Shown here: piece by piece, positions 19,599 through 42,075 of the stretch
Layout of the letters: every line of letters begins with the position of its first letter
Position numbering within the stretch: the first letter of the stretch is position 1
Assembly: GCA_950295325.1 (NCBI GenBank)
Contig: OX485806.1
Coordinates: 1,862,001-1,926,000, forward strand
Direction: 5' to 3'
DNA: 64,000 nucleotides
Source: Polytrichum commune
Taxonomy: Eukaryota; Streptophyta; Polytrichopsida; Polytrichales; Polytrichaceae
The notes under the pieces: model-generated
What the model saw: only the letters and a program-made list of their open reading frames with translations
Databases searched by the model: none
What the model was told of the DNA's origin: nothing
Position numbers and translations under genes: made by a program

Positions 19599-19629
19599 CA
19601 ACCAAGCAATAAGGACAAGAGCATTTAAC

Positions 19630-20040: not shown

Positions 20041-20047
20041 TTTGCGG

Positions 20048-22019: not shown

Positions 22020-22173
22020 TTGCGAACGAGCGTTCGTGAATGAAGGCTGCGGGGGCGGTGCGCATCATTTACGAGCGCTCGTTCGTGAGCGCGGCTACAC
22101 GTACATTTACGAGCGGTCGTTCGCGAATGAGGTGGACAGTGGGTCGCAGCCTTTCACGAACGAGCGTTCGCGA
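22020..22173. repeat. Cluster of four TTTACGAACG-type palindromes
   Basis: Four palindromes with arms close to TTTACGAACG / CGTTCGTAAA start at 22020, 22068, 22106 and 22152. Most have one or two mismatches (cgagcg, cgcgaa). They lie just beyond the 3' end of the ParB/methyltransferase-like gene. The order of surrounding words matches 41636-41720. Confidence 0.85.
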
Positions 22174-22336
22174 ATGAGGTGGGTATGCAAGAATCAACAT
22201 AATCTCATCAACATATACAACATACGAGAAGGGGTCGAGGGCAGAGAATTTGAAGCAACGCGATGCAGATAACATAGGCTCATATATTAATCCGTTGAAT
22301 ATTTACATTTCTCACGTGATAGTCTATCACATTTTC

Positions 22337-22414
22337 CTAAGGCAAAATGATGCCGTGTCCTACAAAACTGTTCGGCCCTAAGGGGGACCGCTGAAGAGGG
22401 CTCTCGCAAGGCCA
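22337..22414 (-). CDS. ParB/methyltransferase-like gene, terminal exon 4
   Basis: Acceptor TCGACATCCAG/TGGCC at 22415. It encodes 25 residues (starting WPCESPLQRSPLG) and ends in TAG at 22337-22339. Intron 3 (22415-22504, 90 bp) is phase 0 and contains one TTACGAACG palindrome. The assignment rests on splice-site fit and on a diverged second copy of this exon-intron-exon stretch at about 41860-42065. Confidence 0.5.
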   Translation of the reverse strand, partial: WPCESPLQRSPLGPNSFVGHGIILP

Positions 22415-22504
22415 CTGGATGTCGATGAAGATAAAAACATCGCGATGTTAGAGAGGTTACGAACGCGCGTTCGTTAAAAAATGGTATTCTCAGAGGAGAG
22501 TTAC

Positions 22505-23938
22505 CTCGTCATCGGGGGGAGGGGTAGCGGCGCTGGACCGAGCAGCAGGTCCCTCCTCAACGATTAACGAACGCGCGTTCGTAACCTCCACAGCTGCAGC
22601 CGCCTCTGTCTCCATGGCCTCTGCCTCACGCTCCGGTTGAGAGGCCTGTGTCGCTTGGATGCGCAGCGCGTCTTCTTCCTCGGCGCCCAGGTCGAGCGCG
22701 TCCATCCTGACATCCTCCATCCACGCCGCATGGGTTTCTTCCACGTCCATCCCATGCACCCCTGGTGCGTCATTGGGGCTCCCCTGCGTGTCCTCCACAA
22801 TGACCATGTCAGTGTGTCGCGCAGAGTCATCGCCATGTCTGTCTACTACCCTGGGGACGACGGTGAAAGACGATGCATCGGTGTATGAGGGCAGTCCTAC
22901 CCTTGAAGGGGGAGGGGTGAGGACTGGAGGACCTGAAGATTCACGAACGCGCGTTCGTAAATCCTCGTCCTCCTGGATGGCCGCCGCCACAGCATCGTGG
23001 GAGGTGGTCGAGGGAACCTCTGGTGGCGGAGGAGTGCCAACAGGCGTGGGGTGGGGCGCCTGCTGGCGGGAAGGCCCTCCGGTGAACATGCCCGGTGGAG
23101 GGGATTGGGAGGGGTATCCTCCAGTGAAGGGGTAGGCCGGCTGGGGGGGCGCCGAGAAGCTCTGCATACGCTGGAGCATGGCGAGGATGGCGTCCGTCTT
23201 CTCGTTGGACTGCCTCAGCTCCTCCTGAATTGCGAACATTTTCTTGGCATTCTCCTCTGCCGCCTTCGCCATGTCCTCCTTCATCTTTTGCTCGAGCTTG
23301 GCGTTAAGCTCGGCGACGGACAACGCCTCCTCCTTGACCCGCTTGTTCTTGTCGAAGTCTACCCCCAGCTCGACCATGATCTCCATGTCGCCCTCGTCCT
23401 CATCGGAGACCTCGATGATTGCCCCCGGAGGCAGCTCCACGTAGGGGGTCTTCTTCATCCTCCGCCTCGTGTTGCGGTACTGGTCCAACGTCGGTCGGGA
23501 CCGTTGGTCCAGAAGGTCGAGGTTCTCCATCTTGGGAACCACGATCGGCCTGGGCGACACGGATGTCGAGCATCCCCCGGGAGTGCCGAATGCCTCCGCT
23601 CCAGACGTTCTCGCGGGGAGGACATCTTGGGTTGTCCCCGCCGACGACCCCGTGTATCCACCCGGAGTCCCTTGCACGTCGGATGGATTTCCCGACGGCG
23701 CCAAAATGCGGAGAGGAGTGACGTCCAAGGATCGGAGGATCGCCTCGACGTTGTAGGAGGGCGCGGGCTCGTCGTCGTCCGTCTCCATGGCGGGCATGCC
23801 TTCGTCGACGGGCATGTTGATGTCCGTCCTCGGGAGGGACATGTCCTCCAGGTCCATCGTGGAGGCCTTCGCCCTGTGCACGTGGAAGTCCTCCTCGTCG
23901 ATGGCTTCAATGAAGCTGTTGACGACCAGCCCCAGCAT
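22505..23938 (-). CDS. ParB/methyltransferase-like gene, exon 3
   Basis: 478 codons, phase 0 at both ends (acceptor TTGAATCTCAG/ATGCTG at 23939; donor GACGAG/GTAACT). The first residues, MLGLVVNSFIEAIDE, continue the motif I-II strand begun in exon 2. The rest is an acidic, Pro-rich, probably disordered tail with an Ala/Lys/Glu coiled coil (about residues 225-275, AELNAKLEQKMKEDMAK...). Two 22-bp palindromes lie inside the coding sequence, at 22564-22585 (read as VTNARSLI) and 22940-22961 (read as DLRTRVRE). They are in different reading phases and neither breaks the frame. Confidence 0.65.
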
Positions 23939-24079
23939 CTGAGATTCAAGCAAATACGTTAGAAAATACGAACGTGCGTTCGTAAACATCAACGACGAGA
24001 AACAATGTCATCAAACCCAAGACAAGTTGAGGTGAACTTTAACGAACGAGCGTTCGTAAATATTAGTTGGAGAGCTTAC
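23939..24079 (-). other. Intron 2 (141 bp) with two palindromes
   Basis: GTAAGC...GAATCTCAG, phase 0. Palindromes at 23965-23986 and 24039-24060, near either end of the intron. Confidence 0.65.
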
Positions 24080-25405
24080 CATCGCAGCGTACATGAACTT
24101 GCTGCCGCCACAAACGTTGTACACGGTCTCTCCGCTTATTGCCACGCTCTGCAAAACGGAGACGTAGAACTCCAACCTGAGTTCCATCGCCGGGAAGACA
24201 GTGTACAAGGTCTCCTGCAGCAGATCCTTGGGAGGGGGATGGGGGATGCTGTAGATCTTCTTGAACGTAGTGTTCGCCTTGACAGGGGCTCGCCCATTCC
24301 GCAGCGCGTTGTACGTCAAGAAGACGAGGCTGACCGCCCCCACCTGTTTGTTCCCCCTGGCCTCGTTGATGGCCACGATCCCTTCCGTCTTGGCGGGCAC
24401 GTAAGTGCTGTGGAAGATGCTGTACTCAAATTTGATCGACTTCTCGTACAGGTCGACTACAGCAGAGAGCTTCTCCTGCTCGACTATCCACAGCCAAACG
24501 TGAGGCTCCCTCATGTCCGGAGACTTGTGCTCCTTGAACTTGGCCATGAAGGGGTCGTAGAAAGGTATGTCCTTCCCCCCCTGCCTCGACGCACCGGGGA
24601 TCCCCCTGAAATCGATCAGGGCAAATGGGCACCCCCGTCGATCCTCCCTCACCTCGGCCCTGCTCATGGTCCGGTCCCACTTGGAAAATGTCACCCTCTC
24701 CACTCCTTTTGTCAACAGACAAAATCTGGCCACTCCTTCGAATGTGGCCAACCTCTTCCGCGTCAAAAAGCTTCTGTATTGCTCCACCTCTTGGGGATCC
24801 GTCTCGGTTTTCTTTGTCCTCTTGTTCCCCTTCTGCTTCAAAATGGAGGCGTGCTCCTTGACAAGACAACGCATTGAGGGTCCGGAGATGTTGTAGTCGA
24901 CCTTGAACATCTTCCAGCTGGCCCAATTAATGTCCCCGTCGGCTAGGATGAGTGCGTACTCTGGTATTAGGGCGCTCAACTCCCTCATTGCAGCAGTCTT
25001 CAGCTTGCGGTGTTCGCACCATTCCTTGATGGAATACGTGCCGGGCTTGTGTCTTGGCCTCTTCAAAAATATCTTCGGGTATGGGATGGTTCTTCCCACA
25101 GTGTTCCCAAGAAGATGCACCGCGCACCTCTGCAACTCGGACTCTGTTAACCCTTGAAGGGACCTGAAGAACTCCCTCAGTAGTGGAGGGGCCTCCCCGG
25201 TCTTCTCCGCGCTGTACTTCTCCTCGGTGTCGGGGTTGACCAGATCGCCCGAGCTGTGCGCATCAAAAAATTGTGTCCACAACTCCCAAGTGTCCCTGTT
25301 GCAACAGATGAGGCGGAGCTCACCCTTGAGCTCCAGGACAGACTTGGTTGTTGTAGACTTCATGTCGATGGAGGAGAACTTGTCCACCATCGCGTCGCAG
25401 AATGC
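24080..25405 (-). CDS. ParB/methyltransferase-like gene, exon 2 (MTase-like core)
   Basis: 442 codons, phase 0 (acceptor TTGCTGCAG/GCATTC at 25406; donor GCGATG/GTAAGC at 24079). Residues 255-270 (CPFALIDFRGIPG) stand where motif IV (D/N-PP-Y) of a beta-class amino-methyltransferase would be. Residues 300-345 (HVWLWIVEQEKLSAVV...) fit the following strand-helix. Residues 405-442 (LRLEFYVSVLQS...GETVYNVCGGSKFMYAAM) match the motif X-I helix-strand-loop, with GGSKF in place of the G-x-G SAM loop. Catalytic residues are absent, so it is probably a non-enzymatic or strongly diverged relative. It shares the same order of elements with the gene at 14727-17061. A basic KQKGNKRTKKTE stretch lies at about 190-201. 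Confidence 0.6.
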
Positions 25406-25526
25406 CTGCAGCAAGAAAAACATCAGTAACGCACAAAATACGAACGCACGTTCGTAAGTTTGAATGTCAAAGAATTTGAAAATTTGAATGTCAAAGATAT
25501 TTACGAACGTTCGTTCGTAAACTCAC
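25406..25526 (-). other. Intron 1 (121 bp) with two palindromes
   Basis: GTGAGT...TTGCTGCAG, phase 0. Palindromes at 25437-25458 and 25500-25521; the latter begins inside the donor hexamer's last base. The direct repeat 'tttgaatgtcaaaga' also lies here. Confidence 0.65.
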
Positions 25527-26765
25527 CTTCCATTGTGGAGACGGCGTCTTCGCGTTCTCCCTTTCTTTAGGGGGGCACCCGTGGGCGACCCAGACGTCCC
25601 TTGCAGCCACTATGTTGGCTGCCCACGACGCCTCGAAGGCCTTGATTTTGTTGCCGGAGTTGAGGAAGGTGGATATCTTCCGCAGCTTGTCCCAATCGTC
25701 CGACCACACCAAGAACGCCTTCCAGTAGCGCAAGTCCTCCTTCAGCTCATGCTGGAAGTTGTCGTCCTTGAGAATTATTTGGGACGCCTCCAAGCTGTGT
25801 TGGCCGTCTATGATCCAGAACTCTCCATTCTGGATCCGTGGCCAGTCCTTCTCCGTCGGACGGGATGTCAGCCCCTTCGGCATGACGCAGACGGTCTGCC
25901 TGTCCCACTTGACGTTGTTCATTAGATTATTTATCTGCCACTTCACACCACCGCTTTCGCGAGAGCGAACCACCCATTTGTTGGGGGACATCTCGCACTT
26001 GAAGCAGTCCACGTTGAATGTGAAGTGGCGTCCCATGGGCCAGCAATCCTTCGAGTAGTTGTTGAAGTCTCGAAGGATCCTCGTGGCCTTCACAGCGTCA
26101 GGGTTCTCACCCTTTTTCAAGGGGGTGGGCATTACGACAGGCGAGGTCACCTCTGCGGTCTCCGTTACTCCCGATTTCTCCATCTCCTCCCTTGTCCTCT
26201 TCGATGGCGTGGAGTGTCTACTGGGGCCCTCCGTCGCCCTGCTAGCGGAAGGCACAGGCCTGGGTGCACTTCTAGATCCTCCTGCCCCTGATGTGGATGG
26301 TTTCCTGGGGCTCTTCTTCTTCTTGTTTGCCTCAGTGACCACACTGTTGTATTTGGAGATGTTCAATGCCAGGGCGTTCAATTTCCTTGCAGTCCAGTAT
26401 GGGCTCAACGCATATTTGGAGAAGAGGCCGTCCAGGTCGAAGTGCTTGGCATCTTCCGCTACGTTATTGGTGGCGTATTGGTAGGAGAAGGTATTTTTCT
26501 GAAAATGTAACAAGAGGTTGATATGATCCTTCTTGTTCTTCATGTCCAGAATTACATACTCCCCCTGGGCCTCTATGGACTCTATCTCCCACGTCTTCAT
26601 TTGAACCCACTGTTCGGGCTGGTCCGGTCTTGTCTCCAGCTCGTAGGTGAAGCGCATGCAGAAGAGGCCGTCCCCGATCTTCTCTGGCAGTGCCGTCCAC
26701 TCCCCCATGAAGTCTTCCTTGGGGACATAGTTGTCGTTGCCGTTATCGTCTAACACCGACTCTGG
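25527..26765 (-). CDS. ParB/methyltransferase-like gene, exon 1, downstream part
   Basis: 413 codons of the first coding exon, downstream of the retrotransposon insertion. About residue 339-343 (counting from the ATG at 36947) is DGQHS in the context 'FWIIDGQHSLEAS', followed by 'WKAFLVWSDDWDKLRKISTFLNSGNKI'. This resembles the DGQHR / ParB-sulfiredoxin-like fold, with an Asn/Lys helix after it. Earlier parts hold a Trp-rich region (MGEWTALPEKIGDG) and a basic, Ser/Pro-rich linker (KKKKSPRKPSTSG). Donor GAAG/GTGAGT at 25526. ParB-like domains bind or cut DNA or hydrolyse nucleotide in bacteria; in this protein the role is unknown. The ParB call rests on one motif plus order of elements. Confidence 0.55.
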
Positions 26766-26770
26766 GAGGC
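26766..26770. repeat. Target-site duplication GAGGC, left copy
   Basis: GAGGC here equals GAGGC at 36891-36895 on the other side of the retrotransposon, marking a clean integrase-type insertion. Confidence 0.95.
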
Positions 26771-28735
26771 TGTGAGGCCAAACCCCCCACCCTTAAGCGT
26801 CCGTAGTCCGAGTAGTGGGTTTGGGCTCACATTCCTCCGCGGTATTGGATTTGGACTTGGATGAGTCCATAGTGCAAGGTTCACCCTTCAAGTGGTCTTG
26901 GATTTAACTAGAATTTCATTGGTGTCTCCATACCGTACATAAGCCTTTAAGTATTAAGAAATACTTATGTGACTTATGTCAATCTCTCCCTCGCACCTTT
27001 GGTCTTTGCTTCCTTTGTCTTGCCATCGCGAGAGTGCTCCACATTCTCCATTAAGTTGTGCACGTGGTTTATTTTTAGAGAGAGGATGCAAGTGTTAAAA
27101 AAAACACTATTCTCTATAGTCAATCTCAAATACATTTACTTGTGAAAGCCACACATAACACTAACTAGCATAATGTAACTAACTACTTGTCTATGAGCTA
27201 ATTAGGTAGGCTATCTACTAAGCTCCTTCATAAACCCAGCTTCTTAGCTTCTAACTAAACAAACCCAGCTCCTTCATAAACCCAGCTCCTTCATGAACCC
27301 AGCTCCTTAGCTTCTAACTAAACAAACCCAGGTCCTTCATAAACCCAGCTCTTTACTTTCTAACTAAACAAACCCAGCTCCTTCATAAACCCAGCTCCTT
27401 CATGAACCCAGCTCCTTAGCTTCTAACTAAACAAACCCAGGTCCTTCATAAACCCAGCTCTTTACTTTCTAACTAAACAAACCCAGCTCCTTCATAAACC
27501 CAGCTCCTTCATGAACCCACAACTTTGTAGTTGTAATCCCCAACTACCTCACTAATTATTCAAGCCCTTAACTAATCTTCCTACCTAATTTCCCTAATTC
27601 TACTAACAACCCCTTTCTAATCACACAATTCTTCTCTAATCCTAAAATCCTAAAATCCTAGAGAGGAGAGGGGGAGAGAGAATTTCCTAACTTCACTAAG
27701 ACTAACTAATCCACACAAGTATATTTTTGCACTCATCACAACATCAAGTGCTCAACTCTTAAACATGGAACTTGCAACCACGTGTATTCAAAACATGAAC
27801 TTAAAGTACCACAAATTGGAATCATGAATTAACTTTAAAATCCTTCACGTCAACACTAATTCTACCAAGAGGTCAAGCCCTCTTCAAGGCTAACAAGCCT
27901 TGGCTCTCAAACTAAAAACTAAGCACACACATGTGCTCCAATATGGCTTCCCACACCCACACTTATAACTCGTGGGGTGCCTTGGAGCACAAAGGAAAGA
28001 GAGGATGAGTGAGGGAAGAATGAGGGATTATATAGTAAGCTTGAGGGGGTGAGCACCCTCAAGGCTCACGATAAGCCCTTGAGATTTCCTCCTACTTAGT
28101 AGGCGCCAATCCTATCTTCTAAGCCTTCCTCCCTCAAATGATCAACAAGGATCCTAATTCGAACATTTAACTAGCCTTGGCTTTCTACCTACCACACTTT
28201 ACCAAACTTGGGATGCTTCAACCCAAACTTAGCCTCCTTCGCTTTCCGCCGCCATAACTTTCTCCCCTTACTTTCCCAAATCGTCGCTCACCACTTAATT
28301 CAAACCACGATGCTTAACTCGTGATTTGATTGGTGCTTTGAGAATTTGCTTATCCTCCACCTTACATTCTTCCTTGGGCCTTCCCCATTAAGTGGCCATG
28401 ATGAGGTGGTCCACTTGTGCGCTCCATGTGATCCTCCATTCATCCCAATTCGAATGCACTTGCCTCTTGAGTCACTTTGGTTGTCTCCATCCATTTGTAC
28501 TAGCCTACTTACTAACTACTCAATCCAAGTTCTCCTTACCTATCCTCATTCACTCAAATCCTTCCGAAGGTAAAAACACAATAACAACTCACATCCTAGC
28601 CTCTTACAACATGGTACTTCTAAGACTAACATTTCACTCTTTTTATATTTTTGTGAAGTAACATGCTACTTCAAAGTGCATCAACTAACGTTTCAAGGGT
28701 CTAAGACTAAATGTGGGCACCCTTTTGGGCTCACA
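26771..28735 (-). repeat. LTR, left copy (3' LTR of the minus-strand element)
   Basis: Edges TGTGAGGCC...GGGCTCACA. It contains an internal tandem array (about 27235-27520) of 'aacccagctccttcat(a/g)aacccagctcc' units with a roughly 112-bp higher-order period. Wherever compared, it is the same as the right copy. Confidence 0.95.
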
Positions 28736-28793
28736 TAATTGGCGACCATCGGGGGATGAATCCAAACATCTCTTGCTCCAAGGGTAAGTTGCC

Positions 28794-31700
28794 TTATCCA
28801 TTGAAGTGACCGCCGCAAGCGCTATCGTGGCAAGCGATTAAAATCGCTTCAACCTCCGTTTTTGACACGCATCGTCGTAAAATACCATCGGACCCCCTTC
28901 TAAACAACCTATGGCCCACTACAACAAATTGCCTACTATTTACCCTCACCTTCCTTCTCTCTTCTTTTGTCCACTCTTTGGGCAACTTGTGGGTTGTTAG
29001 AAATTCCACTATGCCCGCATACCACTCCGGTGTAGAAGTGACCACAAAGAGGCTATCATCTACTAACATATCATTTACCGGATTTTTTCCTATCTCCTCC
29101 GACAACCTAGACAAGTGGTCCGCTTGTAAATGCATACGACCCGGTTTATATTCCACCGTGTAGTCGAATTCTTCTAATAACAAAACCCACCTAGCTAACC
29201 TACCACTTAACTCCGCCTTGTTAATTAGATACTTGATAGCCATGTGGTCAACAAAAAATACAACCGGGTTGCACATGAGGTAATGTCTAAACTTTTTAAC
29301 GGAAAACACCATGGCTAGGCACTCCCTCTCCGTTGTAGAGTAGTTTCTTTCGGCGGGGGTCAATTGCTTACTCGCATAAGCTATAGGTTGATCCTTCTCT
29401 TTTTCTCCCGTTGCTTGACAAAGCGCACTCCCTATTGCCACATTACTAGCATCACAATAGACGTGAAAAGGTTTACCCCAATTGGGTGGTATCAACACCG
29501 GATAGGTGCTCAACCTATCCCGCAATTCCTCAAAGGCTTTTTGACAAGCATCCGTCCACTCGAATTTGACATCCTTTTTGAGCAAATGGGTAATGGGCAC
29601 CGCTATCTTTGAAAAATTAGGAATAAGTTCCCGGTACCATCCCACATGTCCTAACAACTTAGAGATCCCCTTGGAATTGGTTGGAGTTGCCAAGTCGCTT
29701 ATGGCCGCAATCTTATCCGGATCGGGTTCTCTACCTTTCTCACTAACAACATAACCCAACAACACTCCCTTATTCACTCCCAAAAATGTCTTATCCGGGT
29801 TCAATGCTAACCTCATCTTCCTACACCTAACCAATGCCTCCCTAACACAATGTAGGTGATCATCCACATTACTTTGTGTGCTAAAATCGTCCACAAAGAC
29901 GGTCATGGATTTGAACAACAAGTCGGTGAAGATATACATTACTAATCGTTGGAAAGTAGCCGGGGCATTACATAACCCAAATGGCATCACTACCCACACA
30001 AAAGTACCCCAAGGTGTAGTAAAAGCCGTTTTATGGATATCTTGGAGGGCTATGGAAATTTGATTATAACCCGCATACCCATCCATAAAGGTATATCGCG
30101 AATGACCTCCAACCTCCTCAAGCAACAAGGTGATAAAAGGTAAGGGGAAGTGATCCTTTTGTGTGCACGAATTCAATTTCCTATAGTCGACACAAACCCT
30201 TAATTTCCCTTTTTTTTTCTTTACTAAGACCATAGGAGAAACCCAATCCGTGATTTCCACCGGCTTGATAAACCCGGCCTTCAATAACCTTTCCAATTCC
30301 GCTTTCACCAACAATTGCAATTGAGGATTCATCCTCCTCTCCTTTTGTCTAATTGGCCTCGCCCCCGGAATTAAAGGAATCCGGTGCTCTACCATTTCCC
30401 TAGGAATTCCCTTAAGCTCATCGTAGGACCATGCAAAAGTATCACTAAACTCATCCACCAAATTGCTATACTCCCTAACCTCTTTCTCCCCCAATTTGGA
30501 GCCCATCTTCATTTGTCGGGTTTTTCCATTCTTTAATTTCACATCCACGTACCGCCAATCCGCTTCCGACACATGTGCTTGTTCCTCTTTGTTCCGATAC
30601 CAATCGGAAGGCACATTGGGGTAATCTTTCACATCTTGACCTACAACTATCCCCGTAGACGTGGTCTTGAAATGTAAAGGCTCCTCCAATTTCGATGACT
30701 CAATAATCACATCCTCCTCTTGAGTCCCATCTACATGAATTAAACTAACCTCACCCTCTTCCACGTCATCTACCCAAGGTGTTAACCCACCGCTAATCCA
30801 CTCTTCCTCGGTGAGCACCTCACATGGCTCCAACAATGAGCCCTCTCCTAAACTAACACTAGGAAATTCACTCCCTAAGCCTACTTGGTGAAATGTAACC
30901 ATTACATCAACCTCGGACTCGGGGTACTCCCTTAGCCATTGGGCATAATCCCCATTATCCCCATAATTGTAAAAATTAGGACCTAGACTTCCCGAGCCCG
31001 AATCTATAACAACCCTTTGACCTTCGGGATGGACGACTCCCACCAATGCCTTGCCAATCTCATTCTCGTTTAAGTCATCAATTTCCTTCTCCAATGGCAA
31101 ATACATCTCCTTCTCCATCCATCCTTCTAATGAACCAATGGACACTATGACCCTATTACCCTCCGGACCATAAGTGATGGATGGTTTAGGTCCACCCCAA
31201 TTGACCATAGCATTCGCCATCCGCAACCAAGGCCTACCTAGCAAAATGGGGAAGGTGTCCTTGTTGGAGTGCATTTTAATGACATGGAAGGTGACCAAGT
31301 ACTCCTCACCTCCCGTAGTCATTCTACAATCCTTGATCATCCCCAAAGGCGTAGTCGAACTTTGATTTGCCATATTTATGACCAAAGGTGAAGGCCCCGT
31401 GAGTCCAAGTCCCAATTTTTTCATAGTATCCTCCGGTAGTATATTTAGACTACTCCCTCCGTCGACTAGCACATTAGGAACCACCTTATCTACTATAACA
31501 ACTTCTATTTCTATAGCTTTCACGTGTCTTCCACCTTGTGATTGGATCCTAGCGGCTATTTTAGCTTTCACCTTCCTCATCCTCTTGTGTACCGGCATTC
31601 CCTCCTTTAATGTTTTCCTTGCCGTGGGTGAAATTTCCAATAGTTGGCCGAAAGTAATATCCGCCTTGAGTGTACTAAGGTCCGCCCACAAGTCGTACCC

Positions 31701-34016
31701 GGTAGATCTTTCCACCTTAGAATTACCCACTACTTCGAATTCGTCTACGGGAACCCCCGGTCCTTCCCATTCACCCACATCGCTATTATCCAAGTCATGT
31801 ACCGCATTAGTCCTCTCCCTATCTTGTAAAATTATATTTTCCCTCTCCACATCCTTAGTAGCTCTTCTAGCTACCCTATCCAACTCGGAGAGATTAATCT
31901 CTTCATCCGAAGAGTAATTTCCTTGCTCTCCTATTCCTACCTCCAACGGGGCATCCCCTCTCCTAGCCCTAGTAGTTACCGCTAGTGCAGGTGCTTCTTC
32001 AACCACACCCTTACCCTTCACTAACTCATATGTAATAGCATTGGTGTGAGGAGGCCATTGACTTTGCTCCTCTCCAATTCTCGTTGGGAGAGGAAGCATG
32101 TCATCACATGTGGCCTCCAACACTCCATCCATGAACCTAACATCTTGGGAGTTAGATGGTCCCGGATCCGTTGGAGGCGCTTGTCTCCCGTTACTACCAT
32201 TAGGTGGAACTCCTTGTCTATTTTGTATTGGAATGTAACCGGTTGTAGTTTGCAAGCCCGCCGGTGGATGAAAAGTTTGCCTAGCATTACTATGGTCATA
32301 GTATAAGTTAGGTGGCCTAAGTTCATTGGCCGGTACTCCTTGTGGCCTAGCACCTCGCATATTATCCCTTGCTTGTTGTTGTGGATTAGCCACCGGGTAA
32401 GGGACATTAATTATTTTGTCCGGTTGGCGACACGTATCCGAGGGATGACTTCCTCCACAATTGCTACAATTAAACTCTTGACCTTCGGACCAACATTGTC
32501 CTTGAGCGTGCCACCTTCCACAAAAGGGATGAAATTCCTTCTTCTCTAAATTTTGGCCACCTTGCCCTCTAGGTTGTGGTCCTCTATTGCTTCCATTTCC
32601 ATAGTGAGGTGGCGCTTGACCTCGTTGATTTTGTTGAGGTGGGTTACCGTTTCCTCTTTGGTCACGGTTTTGTCCACTTCTACAAAATTGACGCGTGTGG
32701 CCCGGTTGGCCACATTGGACACACCATAATCCGGAAGAATGCCTACCCGACTCAACCGGGGGTGGAGGCCCCGGTTGTTGACTCCGGATCATTAATGACA
32801 TTTGATCCGTGAGGCTTTGCATTTGTTTTATCATAGCCTCTTGGAATCCTAGTTGGCTAGCACCTAGTCTTCTCTCAACCTCCTCCAAGTGTGGATCCGT
32901 TCTAGGGGCCGGTAGTGCCAAAAGAGGTGCCGGTTCCCTAACCGCTAAAGGTCGGGGACCGGTGTCCACAATGGCATATGGAATTTGGTTCTCATACTTA
33001 GCGGGTTCTACCGCTACCACCCTAGGGCGTATGGGGATGAATTGTGGGATCAATTCATCCTCCCTTCTCCATAGCCTTTCGTGATCTTTATCCAAGTTTT
33101 CAATATCTCTAGCCGCACGCTTGGCATCCGCCAAGGTCAAGGGATTCCTTTCTAGAACACCCCTAATAGTTCCGGACTTAAAAAACCCTTGAATGAAAAA
33201 TTGCTTTAGCGTGTCGTCGTTGAGCATGGTACCCACAAATCTAGTGCACACTAAATCAAACCTCCTAATGTAAGCCGAAATTTCTTCCTCCCTTCCTTGC
33301 TTCAATGACGACAATGCCCTTAATGCGGTACTTTGACCCACTTCCGGCCTAAATTCGTTAAGAAACTCCCTTTGTAATTGTTCCCATCCCCTAAAATGTC
33401 CCTCGGCATGATCCCGATACCATTCATAGGCTTCCCCCTCTAGAGTGGTAGGAAACCACACTAACCAATAACCCGGGTCGGTTATGAGGAAGCTAGCCAA
33501 CCGTTCGATATACCGTTCCATGTGCCGAGAGGGGTCCTCATCCTTGGTCCCATAAAATTTAGGGAGATGAGATGGCATATCCATCGCCGCTAAATTTTGT
33601 GGAACCACAATTGGTAGGCCTCTTGGCCTAACCAATGGGTCTATTGGAGGTATAGGAGGTATGGGCGGAATTGGGGGTATGGGTGGTGGATCCATCCCCC
33701 GTTCCTCGGCCATGGTGACCGGTGAACTATTCAACAATCCCCTATCAACTTCTACCGGGAATTCTTCTCTAAGTGTGTAATTTTCCGAAGAAGTTTCACC
33801 ACTCAATTTGGAGGGAGTGATCTCCTCTTCAAGTTGAGCTCCAAGTTCTAAGGTGTCTAGAATTGACCTAGTCCTAGGTTCGACGTTCAAACAACTCTCT
33901 ATTCTAACATTATCTTGTTCTAATCTATTACTGATTTTAGAGGACCGCCTCTTTCGAGTAGATTTCTCTAGTCCTACTATCAAACTTGGTTTTTGTGAGC
34001 GAGTCCTACCTTGCAT
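28794..34016 (-). CDS. Gag-protease-RT-RNaseH polyprotein (1740 aa), no integrase
   Basis: One uninterrupted frame. Approximate order: N-terminal basic/Pro-rich segment (1-140, with a PPIPPI repeat), capsid-like gag (150-310, 'EGEAYEWYRDHAEGHFRGW'), CCHC knuckle CVQCGQPGHTRQFC (431-444) and a second Cys/His cluster (497-528), retropepsin-like protease (VLVDGGSSLNIL, about 848-859, with D-G-G where D-S/T-G is usual), reverse transcriptase (about 1210-1400; catalytic VFVDDFS at 1372-1378), RNase H (about 1530-1670; 'VYCDASNVAIGSAL'), and the start of the H2C2 pre-integrase knuckle (CHDSACGGHFNG), at which the frame stops. Full Ty3-type elements continue with integrase of 300-400 residues. The VDDF RT box recalls the Athila/Tat group. 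Coding capacity is intact, so it may supply RT but cannot integrate unaided. Confidence 0.92.
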   Translation of the reverse strand: MQGRTRSQKPSLIVGLEKSTRKRRSSKISNRLEQDNVRIESCLNVEPRTRSILDTLELGAQLEEEITPSKLSGETSSENYTLREEFPVEVDRGLLNSSPVTMAEERGMDPPPIPPIPPIPPIPPIDPLVRPRGLPIVVPQNLAAMDMPSHLPKFYGTKDEDPSRHMERYIERLASFLITDPGYWLVWFPTTLEGEAYEWYRDHAEGHFRGWEQLQREFLNEFRPEVGQSTALRALSSLKQGREEEISAYIRRFDLVCTRFVGTMLNDDTLKQFFIQGFFKSGTIRGVLERNPLTLADAKRAARDIENLDKDHERLWRREDELIPQFIPIRPRVVAVEPAKYENQIPYAIVDTGPRPLAVREPAPLLALPAPRTDPHLEEVERRLGASQLGFQEAMIKQMQSLTDQMSLMIRSQQPGPPPPVESGRHSSGLWCVQCGQPGHTRQFCRSGQNRDQRGNGNPPQQNQRGQAPPHYGNGSNRGPQPRGQGGQNLEKKEFHPFCGRWHAQGQCWSEGQEFNCSNCGGSHPSDTCRQPDKIINVPYPVANPQQQARDNMRGARPQGVPANELRPPNLYYDHSNARQTFHPPAGLQTTTGYIPIQNRQGVPPNGSNGRQAPPTDPGPSNSQDVRFMDGVLEATCDDMLPLPTRIGEEQSQWPPHTNAITYELVKGKGVVEEAPALAVTTRARRGDAPLEVGIGEQGNYSSDEEINLSELDRVARRATKDVERENIILQDRERTNAVHDLDNSDVGEWEGPGVPVDEFEVVGNSKVERSTGYDLWADLSTLKADITFGQLLEISPTARKTLKEGMPVHKRMRKVKAKIAARIQSQGGRHVKAIEIEVVIVDKVVPNVLVDGGSSLNILPEDTMKKLGLGLTGPSPLVINMANQSSTTPLGMIKDCRMTTGGEEYLVTFHVIKMHSNKDTFPILLGRPWLRMANAMVNWGGPKPSITYGPEGNRVIVSIGSLEGWMEKEMYLPLEKEIDDLNENEIGKALVGVVHPEGQRVVIDSGSGSLGPNFYNYGDNGDYAQWLREYPESEVDVMVTFHQVGLGSEFPSVSLGEGSLLEPCEVLTEEEWISGGLTPWVDDVEEGEVSLIHVDGTQEEDVIIESSKLEEPLHFKTTSTGIVVGQDVKDYPNVPSDWYRNKEEQAHVSEADWRYVDVKLKNGKTRQMKMGSKLGEKEVREYSNLVDEFSDTFAWSYDELKGIPREMVEHRIPLIPGARPIRQKERRMNPQLQLLVKAELERLLKAGFIKPVEITDWVSPMVLVKKKKGKLRVCVDYRKLNSCTQKDHFPLPFITLLLEEVGGHSRYTFMDGYAGYNQISIALQDIHKTAFTTPWGTFVWVVMPFGLCNAPATFQRLVMYIFTDLLFKSMTVFVDDFSTQSNVDDHLHCVREALVRCRKMRLALNPDKTFLGVNKGVLLGYVVSEKGREPDPDKIAAISDLATPTNSKGISKLLGHVGWYRELIPNFSKIAVPITHLLKKDVKFEWTDACQKAFEELRDRLSTYPVLIPPNWGKPFHVYCDASNVAIGSALCQATGEKEKDQPIAYASKQLTPAERNYSTTERECLAMVFSVKKFRHYLMCNPVVFFVDHMAIKYLINKAELSGRLARWVLLLEEFDYTVEYKPGRMHLQADHLSRLSEEIGKNPVNDMLVDDSLFVVTSTPEWYAGIVEFLTTHKLPKEWTKEERRKVRVNSRQFVVVGHRLFRRGSDGILRRCVSKTEVEAILIACHDSACGGHFNG

Positions 34017-34925
34017 TCCATAAGAATCGATCGACCCTCACTTGACCACACATAATCCTAGCAATTCCCCTCTTAATATTTTCACTTGTCTTGGTGTGGT
34101 TATAATTTTTTTAGGAGGTGAGGAAAAGAACCTGCAAGCCCACTTAGGTGAAAGAATCCCAATAGGGGATAGGCATGTTCATGTTAATTTTTTGGTTAAG
34201 TCGGAGCATCACCTCCGCACCTTCCCGCAAATTAACACTCACCACAATACCGATTGTGAGGGGGTGACCTTCCGAGTAGATTATGTTAAAAGTCGAGGCT
34301 TCACCCTTCAACTTCTCACACCATCCACAATTCGGGAATTACCCTCTACAACGGATAACAACAATCACGAGTACAAAAGGCATTCCTTAATTAGTTAATG
34401 AGTTCACTTTGAAGAAATAAACATACCTTGAGCAATCGCATCCCCCTGTGAGTTAGCACTCCCCTCAATCGTGACTCAATGTAACAACACCATAAACTTT
34501 GTGAAATATTAATTTAATCTAGAGCATGAAATGACAACTCCCAAAACTTTGAGACTCACCCCGAGGTGAGTGTCAAAGTTCAATGTCCTAAGGTGAATTT
34601 ACCCTCTAATGTTTTAATGAGCTACTCGGTTATAGGTTCCTTTTAAGTTCTTAGCAAATCCCCAAAAAGGTTGAGGACGTACCTTCGCCGCGCTCCTTCC
34701 TCAAAAATGAATTTGCGTAATTGACAATGCAATTCATTCCAAGGAATAGTTGAAATACAATGAATTCAAATGTAACCCAAAGAGAGAATACTTACCGAGT
34801 TTCGGGTGCTCCTTCCCTTCTCTCAAGTTTGTGTCTCCAATTTTTCCTAGTTGCCTCCAAGTCTCCTAGTCGCCTCCAAGTCTTGTAACTACCTTCCGCT
34901 TCGCTCCCGGCGGACGCACCAATTA
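34017..34925 (-). other. Retrotransposon leader between 5' LTR and gag
   Basis: About 900 bp between the 5' LTR and the polyprotein start (minus strand), typical of long plant Ty3 leaders. The open frame 34042-34398 on the plus strand shows no known motif. Confidence 0.6.
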
Positions 34926-36890
34926 TGTGAGGCCAAACCCCCCACCCTTAAGCGTCCGTAGTCCGAGTAGTGGGTTTGGGCTCACATTCCTCCGCGGTAT
35001 TGGATTTGGACTTGGATGAGTCCATAGTGCAAGGTTCACCCTTCAAGTGGTCTTGGATTTAACTAGAATTTCATTGGTGTCTCCATACCGTACATAAGCC
35101 TTTAAGTATTAAGAAATACTTATGTGACTTATGTCAATCTCTCCCTCGCACCTTTGGTCTTTGCTTCCTTTGTCTTGCCATCGCGAGAGTGCTCCACATT
35201 CTCCATTAAGTTGTGCACGTGGTTTATTTTTAGAGAGAGGATGCAAGTGTTAAAAAAAACACTATTCTCTATAGTCAATCTCAAATACATTTACTTGTGA
35301 AAGCCACACATAACACTAACTAGCATAATGTAACTAACTACTTGTCTATGAGCTAATTAGGTAGGCTATCTACTAAGCTCCTTCATAAACCCAGCTTCTT
35401 AGCTTCTAACTAAACAAACCCAGCTCCTTCATAAACCCAGCTCCTTCATGAACCCAGCTCCTTAGCTTCTAACTAAACAAACCCAGGTCCTTCATAAACC
35501 CAGCTCTTTACTTTCTAACTAAACAAACCCAGCTCCTTCATAAACCCAGCTCCTTCATGAACCCAGCTCCTTAGCTTCTAACTAAACAAACCCAGGTCCT
35601 TCATAAACCCAGCTCTTTACTTTCTAACTAAACAAACCCAGCTCCTTCATAAACCCAGCTCCTTCATGAACCCACAACTTTGTAGTTGTAATCCCCAACT
35701 ACCTCACTAATTATTCAAGCCCTTAACTAATCTTCCTACCTAATTTCCCTAATTCTACTAACAACCCCTTTCTAATCACACAATTCTTCTCTAATCCTAA
35801 AATCCTAAAATCCTAGAGAGGAGAGGGGGAGAGAGAATTTCCTAACTTCACTAAGACTAACTAATCCACACAAGTATATTTTTGCACTCATCACAACATC
35901 AAGTGCTCAACTCTTAAACATGGAACTTGCAACCACGTGTATTCAAAACATGAACTTAAAGTACCACAAATTGGAATCATGAATTAACTTTAAAATCCTT
36001 CACGTCAACACTAATTCTACCAAGAGGTCAAGCCCTCTTCAAGGCTAACAAGCCTTGGCTCTCAAACTAAAAACTAAGCACACACATGTGCTCCAATATG
36101 GCTTCCCACACCCACACTTATAACTCGTGGGGTGCCTTGGAGCACAAAGGAAAGAGAGGATGAGTGAGGGAAGAATGAGGGATTATATAGTAAGCTTGAG
36201 GGGGTGAGCACCCTCAAGGCTCACGATAAGCCCTTGAGATTTCCTCCTACTTAGTAGGCGCCAATCCTATCTTCTAAGCCTTCCTCCCTCAAATGATCAA
36301 CAAGGATCCTAATTCGAACATTTAACTAGCCTTGGCTTTCTACCTACCACACTTTACCAAACTTGGGATGCTTCAACCCAAACTTAGCCTCCTTCGCTTT
36401 CCGCCGCCATAACTTTCTCCCCTTACTTTCCCAAATCGTCGCTCACCACTTAATTCAAACCACGATGCTTAACTCGTGATTTGATTGGTGCTTTGAGAAT
36501 TTGCTTATCCTCCACCTTACATTCTTCCTTGGGCCTTCCCCATTAAGTGGCCATGATGAGGTGGTCCACTTGTGCGCTCCATGTGATCCTCCATTCATCC
36601 CAATTCGAATGCACTTGCCTCTTGAGTCACTTTGGTTGTCTCCATCCATTTGTACTAGCCTACTTACTAACTACTCAATCCAAGTTCTCCTTACCTATCC
36701 TCATTCACTCAAATCCTTCCGAAGGTAAAAACACAATAACAACTCACATCCTAGCCTCTTACAACATGGTACTTCTAAGACTAACATTTCACTCTTTTTA
36801 TATTTTTGTGAAGTAACATGCTACTTCAAAGTGCATCAACTAACGTTTCAAGGGTCTAAGACTAAATGTGGGCACCCTTTTGGGCTCACA
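34926..36890 (-). repeat. LTR, right copy (5' LTR of the minus-strand element)
   Basis: Same length and edges as the left LTR, with the same internal tandem array at about 35390-35675. On the minus strand it begins TGTGAGCCCAAAAGGGTGCC. Confidence 0.95.
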
Positions 36891-36947
36891 GAGGCCATCG
36901 ACCTTCACCGCGAACATCTCAATGGCGCTTCTGCTTGATCTTGCCAT
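36891..36947 (-). CDS. ParB/methyltransferase-like gene, exon 1, 5' part split by retroelement
   Basis: Acceptor TTCTGTTGCAG/ATGG at 36948 is followed immediately by ATG and 19 codons (MARSSRSAIEMFAVKVDGL) that run into the LTR. If the element and one copy of its GAGGC duplication are set aside, the frame continues without interruption at 26765 (PESVLDDNG...). The ATG at the exon edge may be the true start, with the preceding intron in the 5' UTR, or an internal Met. Confidence 0.6.
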
Positions 36948-36975
36948 CTGCAACAGAATATAAACAATTAGTGAC

Positions 36976-37607
36976 TTTACGAACGAACGTTCGTAAGTGA
37001 CATGCATATCCCACAGACTACGCAGTGTTAATGCGTCTTTGCAATTGATGTAATTATATTTACGAACGTTCGCTCGTAAATGAGGGGTTGCAAGATCATA
37101 TAAATTTTTAGTATTGAGTTTACGAACGAGCGTTCGTAAAAGATATGAAGATCAAAGAGACTACTCGTCATGAATGTGTTTGTAATATATTTGGTTATTT
37201 TTACGAACGATCGTTCGTAAAAGATATAGGTTTTATAGGTTTGGATTCATTTACGAACGTGCGTTCGTAAGTATGTCCATTTGGTCTATCTTTTCGGATA
37301 TTTGGTTGATTTATCTTTCGTAAGTACATGTGATTTGTCTTATTGGTGTTCGCAAAATTGTATTTGTTCTTTAGATATTCATAGAGGTTCATATTTAAGT
37401 TAAGGTTCTTTCTGAGTGATATTTTGAGTATATTTACGAACGTGCGTTCGTAAATATAGATCATCTCAAAGAACGTGGAGTGCGTATTTACGAACGCACG
37501 TTCGTAAATGGAGGTTCGGTATGCAGTGTATGTCCATTTACGAACGAGCGTTCGTAAATGGAGGTGGGTATGCAGTGTATGTCCATTTACGAACGAGCGT
37601 TCGTATA
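36976..37607. repeat. Array of nine TTTACGAACG palindromes
   Basis: Near-perfect 22-bp palindromes start at 36976, 37059, 37119, 37200, 37250, 37433, 37487, 37537 and 37586. The central dinucleotide varies (AA, TT, AG, AT, TG, CA). The last two belong to a 49-bp tandem unit ('gtatgcagtgtatgtcc' plus palindrome). The array sits immediately 5' of the ParB/methyltransferase-like exon 1, so probably in its 5' intron or promoter region. Open frames reading 'IYERxFVN' are translations of the palindromes. Confidence 0.95.
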
Positions 37608-37619
37608 TGTGATGGTTTT

Positions 37620-38420: not shown

Positions 38421-38624
38421 AAATCTCTCAAAACTTGCAACAAAACTAATTTAAAACTTCAAGACTAAAAAAAGCAAGAGCTTCGCTCTCTAAACGCTCC
38501 GCTCCTCCTCTCCTCGAAATGACAAATGAGGAGAAGAGGAAGGGGCGCGGGGAGGTAGGTGCGCCGCTAGGGTTTCCCAGCACCTGCCACGTGGCACAAC
38601 TCCACTGGCTAGGGTTGGGAGAGA

Positions 38625-38695
38625 GATGGGATGGGATGGTATGGGAGGTGATGGGAAGGGATGGGATGGGATGGGATGCGATGGGAGATGGGAGA
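38625..38695. repeat. (GGGAT)n simple repeat
   Basis: Degenerate GATGG/GGGAT pentamers. Confidence 0.9.
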
Positions 38696-38739
38696 TGGTT
38701 GTATATTGGAACCCTTCATGTTATTCTCATGCTTTGACA

Positions 38740-40335
38740 TATTTATATGTAATGGACGCGTTTAAGGCATTAACTTGACAAGCTTAGTTCAAATACATGA
38801 ATTTTACTCGTTTTATTTCCTTAGTACCTCTACATTTGGATTCCTTGTAAACATATTTTAGGAAAATATGCTCAGTTAATTCGTAATAAACAATGCATGT
38901 CACTCCCTAGGTTGTCAATGTAGAATCCACCCCCAAAGATATATATATGGTGTTTTAAAATATAGTTTATGTAAGAGCTAGATATCTTTCAATTAATTCG
39001 ATGGTTCCTCAAATAAATATTACATGCAAAAAAGAATTCATAATAATATGAGATTGCGCAGAGTTGCTATACGATAGGATGTCAATTCAAGTTCTAATAT
39101 TAGGTGTTAGCTTGAACTAATGCATTTCTGGAGTGGTCAACTATTTTGCTAGCATCAACTACGAGCTTGCGATGAATGAAGTTAATGCAATTACAAGGGT
39201 TTTTGAGGAGTCAATATTGTTTGTGTGTGTAATGTATCCTAGTAACAATCTAAAACCTAAACCCAAATACCACATACACAACTTTCACAAACCCTAAACC
39301 CCTAAACCCTACCCCCAAACCCTTACCCTAAACCCTAACCGCAAACCCTAAACCCTACATCCCTGCATCTTTTTATCTTACCAACCTTTCTTATATGTGG
39401 CCATGTTGTTTTCTGAGGGCAGGTCAAATTGGTCTACCAATGTTGGTTGGATGGAGAATGCTTAATTCCGTTCATAACAACTATAATAATTGATAATGAT
39501 GGCAATTGTCAATTTCACATTCCAAATTAATAGATTTGAGATAAAACTTTGGTTTAAGTGATAAGCGAAATTTCAAATATTCCCACTTTCACCTTAATAG
39601 TTCTGAGTGAAATTTCATCACACAATCCACGATCTTATTATAATAACATGCATGTCTTAAGACTTCAATTTATATCAACACTTTAAGCTATGATGATGCA
39701 CATCCTTCTCATAGGATGCAAAACATATATTAATTGTAAGTACATACTATTGTATGCACCATTCCAAATTAATAGTGCATTTCCCCAAACCCTAAAAGTC
39801 TATTTCCAATAGGACCTCAACTCATTTAATCATGTGTCAACTTAAACTAACAATCGAACAATGCATTCAACTATAAATATCACCAATGATCTAATAAACA
39901 TTTAACCAATGTGTATCCGTACCCTTACAACAAGTGGACGAAAATTCAATTTCCAATAGGACGTCAAACACATAATAATTGTAAATATGATTCAACGTTA
40001 CGGTAGCTAGTATGGTTTCAAGTCTCAATGATCATTACGCTATCATACTATGCAGCATTACAAATTGATTAATCCTTCCTACTCATGCCATTTTAATTCC
40101 TTATTTTCACACCTAGATACCATTTGAAAGAAGACCTAACTTACATATATTATTAGGTATAATTAGTTCATAGTGTCCTCAATCTACCCTAGTGCAAGCC
40201 ATTATGGATTAACCCGATTTTTTAGTTGTATTCATGCACTTGGTGACCATATTACGGTCATTTTTTGATGTGAAACATATGATACCTATAATTTTAGGGG
40301 CGTCCGCAACATGTTTCTTAGCCACTCTGACCTCA
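38740..40335. other. Gene-free AT-rich region with degenerate telomere-like tract
   Basis: No gene is seen. 39289-39358 holds imperfect CCCTAAA repeats (CCCTAAACC, CCCTTACC, CCCTAACC variants), like an old interstitial telomere sequence on the complementary strand. Confidence 0.65.
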
Positions 40336-40338
40336 CTG

Positions 40339-40383
<45 letters not shown>

Positions 40384-40384
40384 G
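40336..40384. repeat. (GT)n(AT)n microsatellite
   Basis: GTGTGTGTGTGTG passing into a TATATATA tract; a similar TA tract lies at 40498-40530. Confidence 0.95.
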
Positions 40385-40906
40385 ACTTCGACATTCATAA
40401 CTTTATTAGGCATCAATTGTCAATTAACTTGGACTTCATACCTTAGTCGCAAATCATTAAATATTCAATGTTAACCATCTCCATATTTAGACATTATGTG
40501 TATATATATATATATACGTATATACATATATTTCGATGAGACCTTGGTCACAACTAAGGTGTGCAACCGATTTATATATTTTCAATATGTTGGCGTGCAT
40601 GCAAGGCATGTTCCATACATGACAATGCTATTTATATAATTCCGCATGGATGGAATGGGAGATTGTTAGGTCAAAGAAGGCGGCGGGAATCTGCTTTTTA
40701 AAAAGCATCCAAGGGATTTTGAACCAGCGGGGTGAAGTACTTAAAGCTCTTCCCCCCACAACAAAGCTCTTTTCAGCGGCACATGCAAGTGTGCGCTCTA
40801 CAGACCTCACCGAACGCGCTCAAGCCATTTCGTGTGCGCCAACCCTACACCACCCAGGTACAGTACAGGCTGTACCTACCGCATATACCGCCGTAAATAC
40901 CGGAAC

Positions 40907-41704
40907 TTTACGAACGCACGTTCGTAAAGATGAAGAGCTTCAGGTTTAGACAAACGATTCGGACCTGGACATGGCAAGGATTTACGAACGCGCGTTCGTA
41001 AATTCCACATGAGAGCATGTTCTGGATTGGGCTACTCATATGGATAGTCACATGCACGTAATCCATCTCAGTTATTTACGAACGTGCGTTCGTAAATATG
41101 CCTTCGAGGACCATGCAGACATATTTGACCCTTATCTATTGGTACCTGATGGTCGGTAATTTACGAACGTGCGTTCGTAAATCCCACAGGAGATCATGTT
41201 TTGGATTGAGCTACTCATGGATAGTCACATGCACATCATCCATGGCATTTATTTACGAACGTGCGTTCGTAAATATGCCTTCGAGTTTCATACATACATA
41301 TTTGACCCTTGTCTATTGGTACCTGTTGGTCGGTAATTTACGAACGTGCGTTCGTAAATCCCACATGAGAGCATGTTCTGGATTGAGGTACTCATATGGT
41401 TAGTCACATGCACTTAATCCATGACAGTCATTTACGAACGTGCGTTCGTAAATATGCCTTCGAGGATCATACATACTTATTTGACCCGTATCTATTGTTA
41501 CCTGATGGTCGGGAATTTACGAACGTTCGTTCGTAAATACATGTCATTATTGTCTACGCATCCAGCAACACATCTTCATTCATGCACATCAGTATGGCAG
41601 TAATTTACGAACACAGAATAGCAAGAAAAATATGCTCATCGCTCGTCCGTGAAGGATGTGAACACGGGGTCGCACCCATTTACGAACGTCCGTTCGTAAA
41701 TGGG
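40907..41704. repeat. Array of nine TTTACGAACG palindromes, 178-bp tandem unit
   Basis: Palindromes start at 40907, 40981, 41075, 41160, 41252, 41337, 41431, 41516 and 41679. Between 40981 and 41537 they alternate with two unique spacers ('cccacatgagagcatgttctgg' and 'atgccttcgaggaccatgca' types), giving a unit of 177-179 bp with two palindromes, repeated about three times. The copy at 41679 extends to a 30-bp palindrome (CCCATTTACGAACG arm, 41675-41704). A half site lies at about 41603. Confidence 0.95.
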
Positions 41705-42075
41705 TAGGTACGCAAAAGTCAACATAATCAAATTCACAATATGGAGGTGCTCAGTGTTCAAAATATTGTTGGAGTTGATTCAGGCATCATCTGCAGATTT
41801 GCTAATTTTGTGCGTATGGACAAGTGTTCTCTTGTGATAGTATATCGCGCAGGTTCCTAAGTCAACATGGTACTTTGACCTACAAAACCGATATTCCTCA
41901 GGGTGCTCTCATTTGAGGGATCTCGAAGGCCGCCGGATGTACATGGAGAAGTTACTGAGGTCACGAACGCGCGTTCGTAAATGCATGTGGCGTTCTCGGA
42001 TTTCTGATTTCGTCGTCGGTTGTATGTGGACAGGCGCTGGTCCGAACAGCAGGGCCCTCCTGGACGACTAACGAG
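41636..42075 (-). pseudogene. Truncated copy of the 3' end of the ParB/methyltransferase-like gene
   Basis: The order of words here parallels 22110-22580: 'ggggtcgcac..ttt.acgaacg', 'gcaaaagtcaacataatc', 'cctacaaaac', 'ccggatgtacatgg', a palindrome at 41961-41982 (cf. 22456), 'gttctcggatttctgatttcgtcgtcgg' and 'ggcgctggtccgaacagcaggg.cctcct'. It therefore spans the equivalents of the downstream region, terminal exon 4, intron 3 and the end of exon 3. It stops near 42075, where the next gene's 5' region begins. It shows that this gene or element exists in more than one copy, and that the palindromes are copied with it. Confidence 0.7.

Follow-up and report, generated by a model that had tools for sequence, protein, structure and literature searches.

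Family-specific palindrome arrays in a large DNA transposon of Polytrichum commune: candidate sites for an anti-silencing system with a ParB-like protein

The window considered here, a 64,000-bp stretch of the Polytrichum commune genome (contig OX485806.1, positions 1,862,001 to 1,926,000), carries 30 near-identical 22-bp palindromes, all of which lie inside one DNA transposon (window positions 19627-45838). This transposon encodes a ParB-like protein and a transposase-like protein with a DUF7869 domain. On balance, we lean toward the view that the palindromes are the cis-acting sites of a family-specific protein-tag system that counteracts silencing, and that the protein is likely the ParB-like one. 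The initial annotation of the window had reported the palindromes, but neither the transposon with its ends and transposase-like gene nor the sister families, in which other palindromes occupy the corresponding places.

The palindromes follow the pattern TTTACGAACG-NN-CGTTCGTAAA, which is matched 30 times in the window at ≤3 mismatches, versus 0 expected from 100 shuffles. Fifteen of them match the motif exactly; perfect dyads also number 15. The set described initially is real, with coordinates correct to 1 bp or better. It is distributed as 11 palindromes at 22019-25521, nine at 36976-37607, nine at 40907-41700 and one at 41960. Their description as lying in and around one gene has to be amended: a single transposon contains them all. 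Across the genome, whose 64 contigs total 408 Mb and of which C1-C7 measure 42-78 Mb, the exact pattern occurs 2,909 times and a reversed-pattern control 0 times. An rbcL gene on C8 matches RbcL chains over their whole length, and its sequence points to a land plant. Among the matches listed, the sites on C1 are tightly grouped. Sequence was fetched for four C1 groups, leaving aside the sites at 2.236-2.240, 2.286 and 2.486 Mb: the groups near 2.27, 2.46 and 2.53-2.54 Mb represent further copies of the window transposon, and that at 0.64 Mb belongs to one of its derivatives. In the genome scan for the arm pair, as proposed at the outset, the sites listed on C1 are thus grouped, and the groups fetched are transposon copies or a derivative. 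A free palindromic micro-element, comparable to a miniature inverted-repeat transposable element, was one of the explanations first offered; it is rejected, since every site examined sits in a large element or its derivative.

Without a nested 10,120-bp long terminal repeat (LTR) element, the transposon measures 16,092 bp. Alignments with other copies stop at 19622-19624 and 45841-45851, and the element is bounded by a 13-bp terminal inverted repeat (TIR; AACACTATATTCG/CGAATATAGTGTT) at 19627 and 45838. A matching 4-bp target-site duplication (TSD) together with the exact 13-bp TIR was found in seven of the nine copies for which both ends were read, and the seven TSDs all differ (ATTT, ACCT, AGTG, ATGT, ATAA, TTCT and CAAG). 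Copies L015/L016 and L021/L022 have both ends but no matching TSD, and L019/L020 shows a single end. At least 102 copies of the second ParB-like exon exist in the genome (102 of 1,083 rough candidates were scored). No palindrome occurs in the LTR element (26771-36890), and the sites are therefore older than its insertion, as the initial annotation held. The ParB-like exons at G000:C4:1781751-1782980 and at window 25542-26771, about 106 kb apart, are 100% identical, share the same short 433-aa frame and lie in opposite orientation; it seems that the interrupted copy was duplicated together with the LTR insertion.

Within the transposon, the palindromes are confined to particular intervals. The ParB-like gene, which we infer to have three introns, holds two palindromes in exon 4, two in intron 3, two in intron 2 and nine in intron 1; five more lie in the interval between the phosphatase and ParB-like genes, and ten upstream of the transposase-like gene. 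Exon/intron boundaries were drawn from splice-like sequence and homology, and those used for site placement are off by at least one base. With approximate intron sizes of 742 bp (intron 1), 120 bp (intron 2) and 140 bp (intron 3), 13 of the 30 sites fall within 1,002 bp of introns 1-3; the corresponding binomial probability of 9e-9 assumes an independence of sites that duplication makes untrue. No window palindrome lies in exons 2-3, the transposase or phosphatase genes, the 3.2-kb middle stretch or the LTR element. Likewise, the terminal 2.4 and 3.9 kb (19627-22018 and 41982-45838) contain none, which is not the arrangement of subterminal repeats. The array at 40907-41700 lies partly within a tandem repeat of 177-179 bp. 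Moreover, the segments 22114-22570 and 41640-42074 are a direct duplication, about 65% alike, so part of the upstream array is a duplicate of the 3' region of the ParB-like gene. Finally, one intron 2 palindrome stands beside a splice site (25500-25526), where bound protein or RNA might affect splicing.

Sister families of the transposon carry palindromes of their own. A genome search with DUF7869, in which 150 of 1,491 candidates were scored (the window's own copy not being among them) and six loci fetched, revealed four further motifs: TTTACGGACG-NN-CGTCCGTAAA in families K and M (1,147 exact matches in the genome), GTTTGGGTCG-NN-CGACCCAAAC in G (9,231), CCCACGGGTG-NN-CACCCGTGGG in H and J (644) and GGGTGAGGCA-NN-TGCCTCACCC in I (23), each with a control count of 0. 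Including the motif of the window family (W), the five share a single design of 10-bp arms around a 2-bp centre and amount to more than 13,900 exact copies in one genome. Each of the 11 element copies tested has between 7 and 43 sites of its own motif at ≤3 mismatches: 30 in the window, 30 in copy F, 30 in copy B, 26 in copy D of the diverged subfamily W2 and 43 in the derivative, with 23 in K, 7 in M, 41 in G, 8 in H, 8 in J and 23 in I. The W and K motifs differ by one symmetric base pair and hence cross-match, the K element having two sites within one mismatch of the W motif. At the copy B locus, five G sites lie outside its TIR.

The sites of W, K and G occupy homologous introns 2 and 3. 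In G, three sites lie in exon 4 and on its 3' side, four in intron 3, six in intron 2, ten upstream of exon 2, one in the middle stretch and 17 upstream of the transposase gene; another G copy (C1:612-626 kb), known from coordinates only, shows the same five blocks with 36 listed sites. In K, nine sites lie in intron 1, one in intron 2, three in intron 3, one 3' of exon 4, eight upstream of the transposase gene and one inside it, at 2795. Family I has 14 sites upstream of its ParB-like open reading frames (ORFs) and nine upstream of the transposase gene. I-type sites are found within 10 kb of four of the eight best DUF7869 places, including the locus at which the motif was discovered; none of 20,000 random placements reached four such places. 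The 13-bp TIR agrees at 13/13 positions among W, K, M and G, the last three each being known from a single end, and a search at ≤2 mismatches did not recover it from the DNA fetched for H, J and I. Despite this identical TIR, the W and G palindromes are wholly different, and the reader of the palindromes is therefore unlikely to be the reader of the TIR.

At the H locus L033 (13272-15100), a sixth dyad array, GGGGTTTCGG-TA-CCGAAACCCC, comprises nine sites spaced by 136-142 bp and adjoins an ORF with a GNHRVTAWRR box. It was considered as the ParB pair of H itself and rejected, two other H-type copies showing no similarity at the matching offset. The ORF, moreover, hardly resembles the ParB-like profile (hhalign probability 0.8%), and the array was kept out of the family table. 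This array may belong to a further, more distant family.

Conservation within families gives indications on the mode of recognition. It was assessed in intron 1 with copy F as reference, over 11 W copies and four W2 copies. In W, differences affect 56/1,960 arm positions (2.9%), 12/196 centre positions (6%) and 602/7,698 outside positions (7.8%); in W2, the figures are 108/710 (15%), 27/72 (38%) and 999/2,422 (41%), the last being a divergence at which the outside alignment is near random and the arm/outside ratio rough. One copy at C1:59.35 Mb was counted as W despite its W2-like intron (29/180 arm and 250/663 outside differences); without it, W differs at 27/1,780 arm and 352/7,035 outside positions. 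This copy (G000:C1:59349951-59355301; L051, L052), with a W-type exon 2 (95%) and a W2-like intron 1, is apparently a recombinant between the two subfamilies; no palindromes occur in the part of it that lies upstream of the transposase gene position. The arms are constrained, and the 2-nt centre and flanks much less so. CpG loss of the C-to-T type affects 8/392 CpGs inside sites versus 12/245 outside in W, and 7/142 versus 31/88 in W2; such lower decay is equally expected from selection, so that it is no proof of methylation removal. Lone exact 10-bp half-sites do not occur in the window (0/38), and the 7-bp core ACGAACG stands alone in 5 of 62 cases there. In the 81 distinct W sites compared, most changes affect one arm and not the other. 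Symmetric changes show no excess over shuffling: no W position falls below p 0.08, and the lowest p among 40 position tests in W, K, G and I is 0.0145, at K position 1. The initial claim that the arms stay complementary is thus right as to their conservation and as to the symmetric changes between families, but not as to changes within families, and the proposed test of compensatory substitutions divides along the same line. Conserved arms, drifting centres and one-sided changes favour a dimeric DNA-binding protein over a hairpin; a binding site for such a protein, here a predicted one, is the best of the three options offered initially.

The candidate for this protein is encoded next to the sites, as is usual in the ParB family. 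An AlphaFold model of exon 2 was built from eight sequences, and its residues 238-377 were structurally realigned over the top 1,000 Foldseek matches. The 13 highest-ranking chains are ParB, Noc, KorB and ParB-N (Z 11.2-8.7, root-mean-square deviation 2.0-3.2, 91-98 residues aligned), with KorB at Z 9.3. They are followed by seven sulfiredoxins (Z 7.6-6.6), then by unrelated entries at Z ≤4.0; the tool's stated usual best Z without a true match is 7-8. With moderate confidence, the exon 2 product can thus be assigned the ParB/Srx N-terminal domain fold. Among viral matches, the top one bears the name ParB/Sulfiredoxin (E 0.0059). A sequence search of the PDB with the ParB-like exon gave no match, and IMG/VR viral contigs contained no relatives of the ParB-like or DUF7869 exon in a search that reaches close relatives only. 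The domain is also present in G and K; the match in I is weaker (hhalign E 3e-5 at a probability of 73%; tblastn with the G query, E 2e-4).

A gene-poor derivative (L029/L045) of about 9.5 kb has kept the termini, with TSD CATA, and much of the middle non-coding stretch. Its genes are reduced to remnants of the transposase (49 aa) and phosphatase (81 aa), and the ParB-like exons have no match in it. It carries 43 palindromes, in arrays expanded as 93-bp and 160-bp tandem units, and appears from its sequence to have kept the cis-acting sites.

Taken together, conserved dyads with a free centre, motif replacement at homologous places, shared termini and the sites of the derivative speak for a protein and a site that co-evolve as a pair, separate from the transposase and terminus. 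In the model that we favour, a large transposon of the cut-and-paste type would carry the palindromes as recognition sites for a protein that it encodes, most likely its own ParB-like protein. A homodimer would bind each palindrome, one monomer per 10-bp half-site, leaving the 2-bp spacer free. Bound at the arrays in the ParB-like introns and upstream of the transposase gene, and perhaps spreading from them as ParB and KorB do, the protein would keep these genes open against host silencing. Each transposon family would have its own protein-palindrome pair, the palindrome being replaced element-wide when families split. Use of cytidine triphosphate by the ParB-like protein, and an effect on methylation, are presumed features of such a system. 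More speculatively, and as a scenario that we hold to be possible rather than probable, a land-plant transposon superfamily could have a system of the ParB-parS type, in which a ParB-fold clamp loads at its own palindromes, slides and blocks silencing; families would part when the pair is exchanged, and derivatives without genes would compete by gaining palindromes.

The main rival to anti-silencing is transcriptional autoregulation, whereby the ParB-like protein would act as a KorB-like repressor of its own gene and the transposase gene and thus control copy number. The clustering of sites at the 5' part of both genes and the presence of KorB among the structural matches speak for this unlikely but serious contender. 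Nevertheless, sites have been retained and even multiplied in the gene-poor derivative, to which repression alone would bring no evident benefit, and further sites are found in introns 2-3 and exon 4. The palindromes could also be accessory binding sites of the DUF7869 transposase that are needed for transposition. Subterminal repeats of CACTA and Ac/Ds elements are accessory sites of this kind, palindromes are retained in a mobile derivative flanked by a TSD, and one array lies upstream of the transposase gene. We nonetheless consider it improbable, given that the palindromes are internal and that W, K, M and G share an identical TIR though the W and G palindromes differ completely.

A host DNA-binding protein, such as a silencing factor, might instead read the sites, making the arrays targets rather than tools. 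That repeats are often targeted by host silencing speaks for this reading, to which we give little credence because replacement of the motif at homologous positions and expansion of the sites would better fit a co-evolving partner internal to the element. A hairpin in RNA or single-stranded DNA, serving processing, small-RNA production or recombination, was another of the initial options. Such a role would suit the dyads, half of which are perfect in the window, and the intronic position of several sites, where RNA would fold, but it is hard to reconcile with arm changes that are mostly one-sided within families and with symmetric ones that do not exceed shuffling, and must be regarded as highly unlikely.

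Several observations weigh against a role of the ParB-like protein in anti-silencing. Taken as a whole, the exon 2 model is weak (pLDDT, the predicted local distance difference test, averages 47.8), with moderate values over residues 231-372. The first three of 846 Foldseek matches are ParB at E 0.035-0.074, values that alone are not significant. The ParB identity suggested initially stands at the level of the fold by structure comparison, but no ParB model of Pfam or NCBIfam matches the protein, which is therefore named ParB-like rather than ParB. No DNA-binding domain was recognised in it, the exon 3 model (mean pLDDT 34.5) being too poor to use. Of the four sister families, three (K, G and I) also show the suggested link between palindromes and a ParB-like gene. 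In the DNA fetched for H/J, neither tblastn with queries from W, G, K and I (best E 0.62 and 0.66) nor a wider motif pattern revealed such a gene, and only the transposase-side array is seen there. In family I, the sites upstream of the transposase gene are imperfect dyads, and nine of the 13 I-type site groups lie more than 10 kb from the eight best DUF7869 places, which come from a capped candidate list that lacks even the window's own copy. The I sites also contain no CpG, so CpG protection is not general. Finally, arm conservation could partly reflect homogenisation through repeat copying.

The order of the three genes, listed with the other features in Table 1, is the same in G and K as in the window element, and both have phosphatase-like ORFs with DLNGVL at the corresponding place, as judged by eye. 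The transposase-like gene consists of two ORFs (42127-43869 and 43844-45433) that are probably joined over a short intron. Its product contains the motifs HDKMDHAKT, LDNCAKDNK and GHTHDDID; the three D-containing motifs are kept in W, K, M, G, H and J, and two of them were found in I, suggesting that the DUF7869 protein is a DDD-type transposase.

Table 1. Features of the transposon and its nested element, in window positions.
Feature	Position	Strand	Basis or remark
TSD, left (ATTT)	19623..19626	.	right copy at 45839-45842
TIR, left (AACACTATATTCG)	19627..19639	+	similarity runs on for about 30 bp
NIF-type (NLI-interacting-factor-like) phosphatase ORF	21119..21904	-	Pfam PF03031, E 2.9e-16
Four palindromes (22019, 22068, 22106, 22153) between phosphatase and ParB-like genes	22019..22174	.	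motif scan
Palindrome just 3' of last ParB-like ORF	22456..22477	.	motif scan
ParB-like gene, exon 4 ORF, boundaries approximate	22490..23940	-	similar ORFs in G and K
Palindrome in exon 4 coding sequence	22564..22585	.	motif scan
Palindrome in exon 4 coding sequence, translated LRTRVRE	22940..22961	.	motif scan
Palindrome in intron 3	23965..23986	.	motif scan
Palindrome in intron 3	24039..24060	.	motif scan
ParB-like gene, exon 3, boundaries approximate	24081..25406	-	ORF and homology
Palindrome in intron 2	25437..25458	.	motif scan
Palindrome in intron 2, a few bases past 5' splice site GTGAGT	25500..25521	.	motif scan
ParB-like gene, exon 2 main piece, predicted ParB/Srx-fold domain, DGQHSLEAS	25527..26770	-	structure comparison
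Nested LTR retrotransposon, 10,120 bp, 0 palindromes	26771..36890	-	TSD GAGGC at 26766-26770 and 36891-36895
ParB-like gene, exon 2, 5' piece severed by LTR element	36891..36948	-	alignment to other copies
Nine palindromes in putative intron 1 (36976, 37059, 37119, 37200, 37250, 37433, 37487, 37537, 37586)	36976..37607	.	
Nine palindromes upstream of transposase-like gene (40907, 40981, 41075, 41160, 41252, 41337, 41431, 41516, 41679)	40907..41700	.	
Last palindrome upstream of transposase-like ORF	41960..41981	.	motif scan
Transposase-like gene with DUF7869	42127..45433	+	Pfam PF25273, E 3.8e-40
TIR, right (CGAATATAGTGTT)	45826..45838	-	matched to left TIR
TSD, right (ATTT)	45839..45842	.	matches left copy

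Two further features lie elsewhere in the window. A repeat of about 1.4 kb (51870-53309) has many BLAST matches in or beside the fetched copies cA, cB, cD and cE, in either orientation, and looks like a high-copy inserting element. The segment 54001-56000 has a GC skew of 0.44 and an AT skew of -0.31, a strand asymmetry unlike most of the window.

If the proposed system is real, it would be a second route by which plant transposons have arrived at a private protein-tag pair, apparently independent of VANDAL/VANC and linked to the ParB fold. With over 13,900 exact copies of the five palindromes and natural pairings of protein and site, specificity, spreading and anti-silencing become directly testable, and the pairs could serve as ready-made orthogonal DNA-binding pairs. 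A literature search covering titles and abstract openings found no description of a ParB-fold protein in a eukaryotic transposon and no mention of DUF7869; searches for anti-silencing with palindromes, for NIF with transposase and for Sola in bryophytes revealed no such transposon among the titles and abstract openings.

As to its backbone, the element resembles Sola transposons, which in the available part of the published account have a 4-bp TSD, a DDD-type transposase and variable TIRs, can exceed 15 kb and are reported in a moss (PMC10741241). The likeness is one of description and lies in the 4-bp TSD (seven of nine copies and the derivative L029/L045) and the presumed DDD motifs. That part of the account mentions neither cargo genes nor palindrome arrays (PMC10741241).

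With the bacterial ParB-parS, Noc and KorB systems, the element shares a predicted ParB/Srx-fold protein encoded beside many palindromic sites. It differs from them in being a eukaryotic transposon with larger palindromes and a free 2-bp centre, and in having DGQH in place of the GERR/GEHR box that ParB proteins usually carry.

The closest described case is that of VANC and the VANDAL elements of Arabidopsis, which is why anti-silencing by the ParB-like protein is favoured here. VANDAL elements are Mutator-like elements (MULEs), whose TSDs are longer than 4 bp; the present element, with its DUF7869 protein and its 4-bp TSD with TIR, does not have that backbone. In the available parts of the published accounts, VANDAL elements likewise show family-specific short motifs, their multiplication in tandem, their intronic and upstream placement, and motif change between families (PMC5735166, PMC10398659). 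VANDAL motifs there lie in introns of element genes and upstream of the transposase gene, multiplied by tandem repeats, and the VANC21 motif is the 9-base YAGTATTAY, arrayed in the same orientation (PMC5735166). An array arrangement of the VANC type is found in W, K and G, where the unit is instead a 22-bp dyad. The terminal structure also differs, the TIR of the window element being 13 bp and its TSD 4 bp. The protein would have a ParB/Srx fold, the likeness to VANC being one of arrangement. By analogy, the palindrome system may work like VANC in an element that is not a VANDAL.

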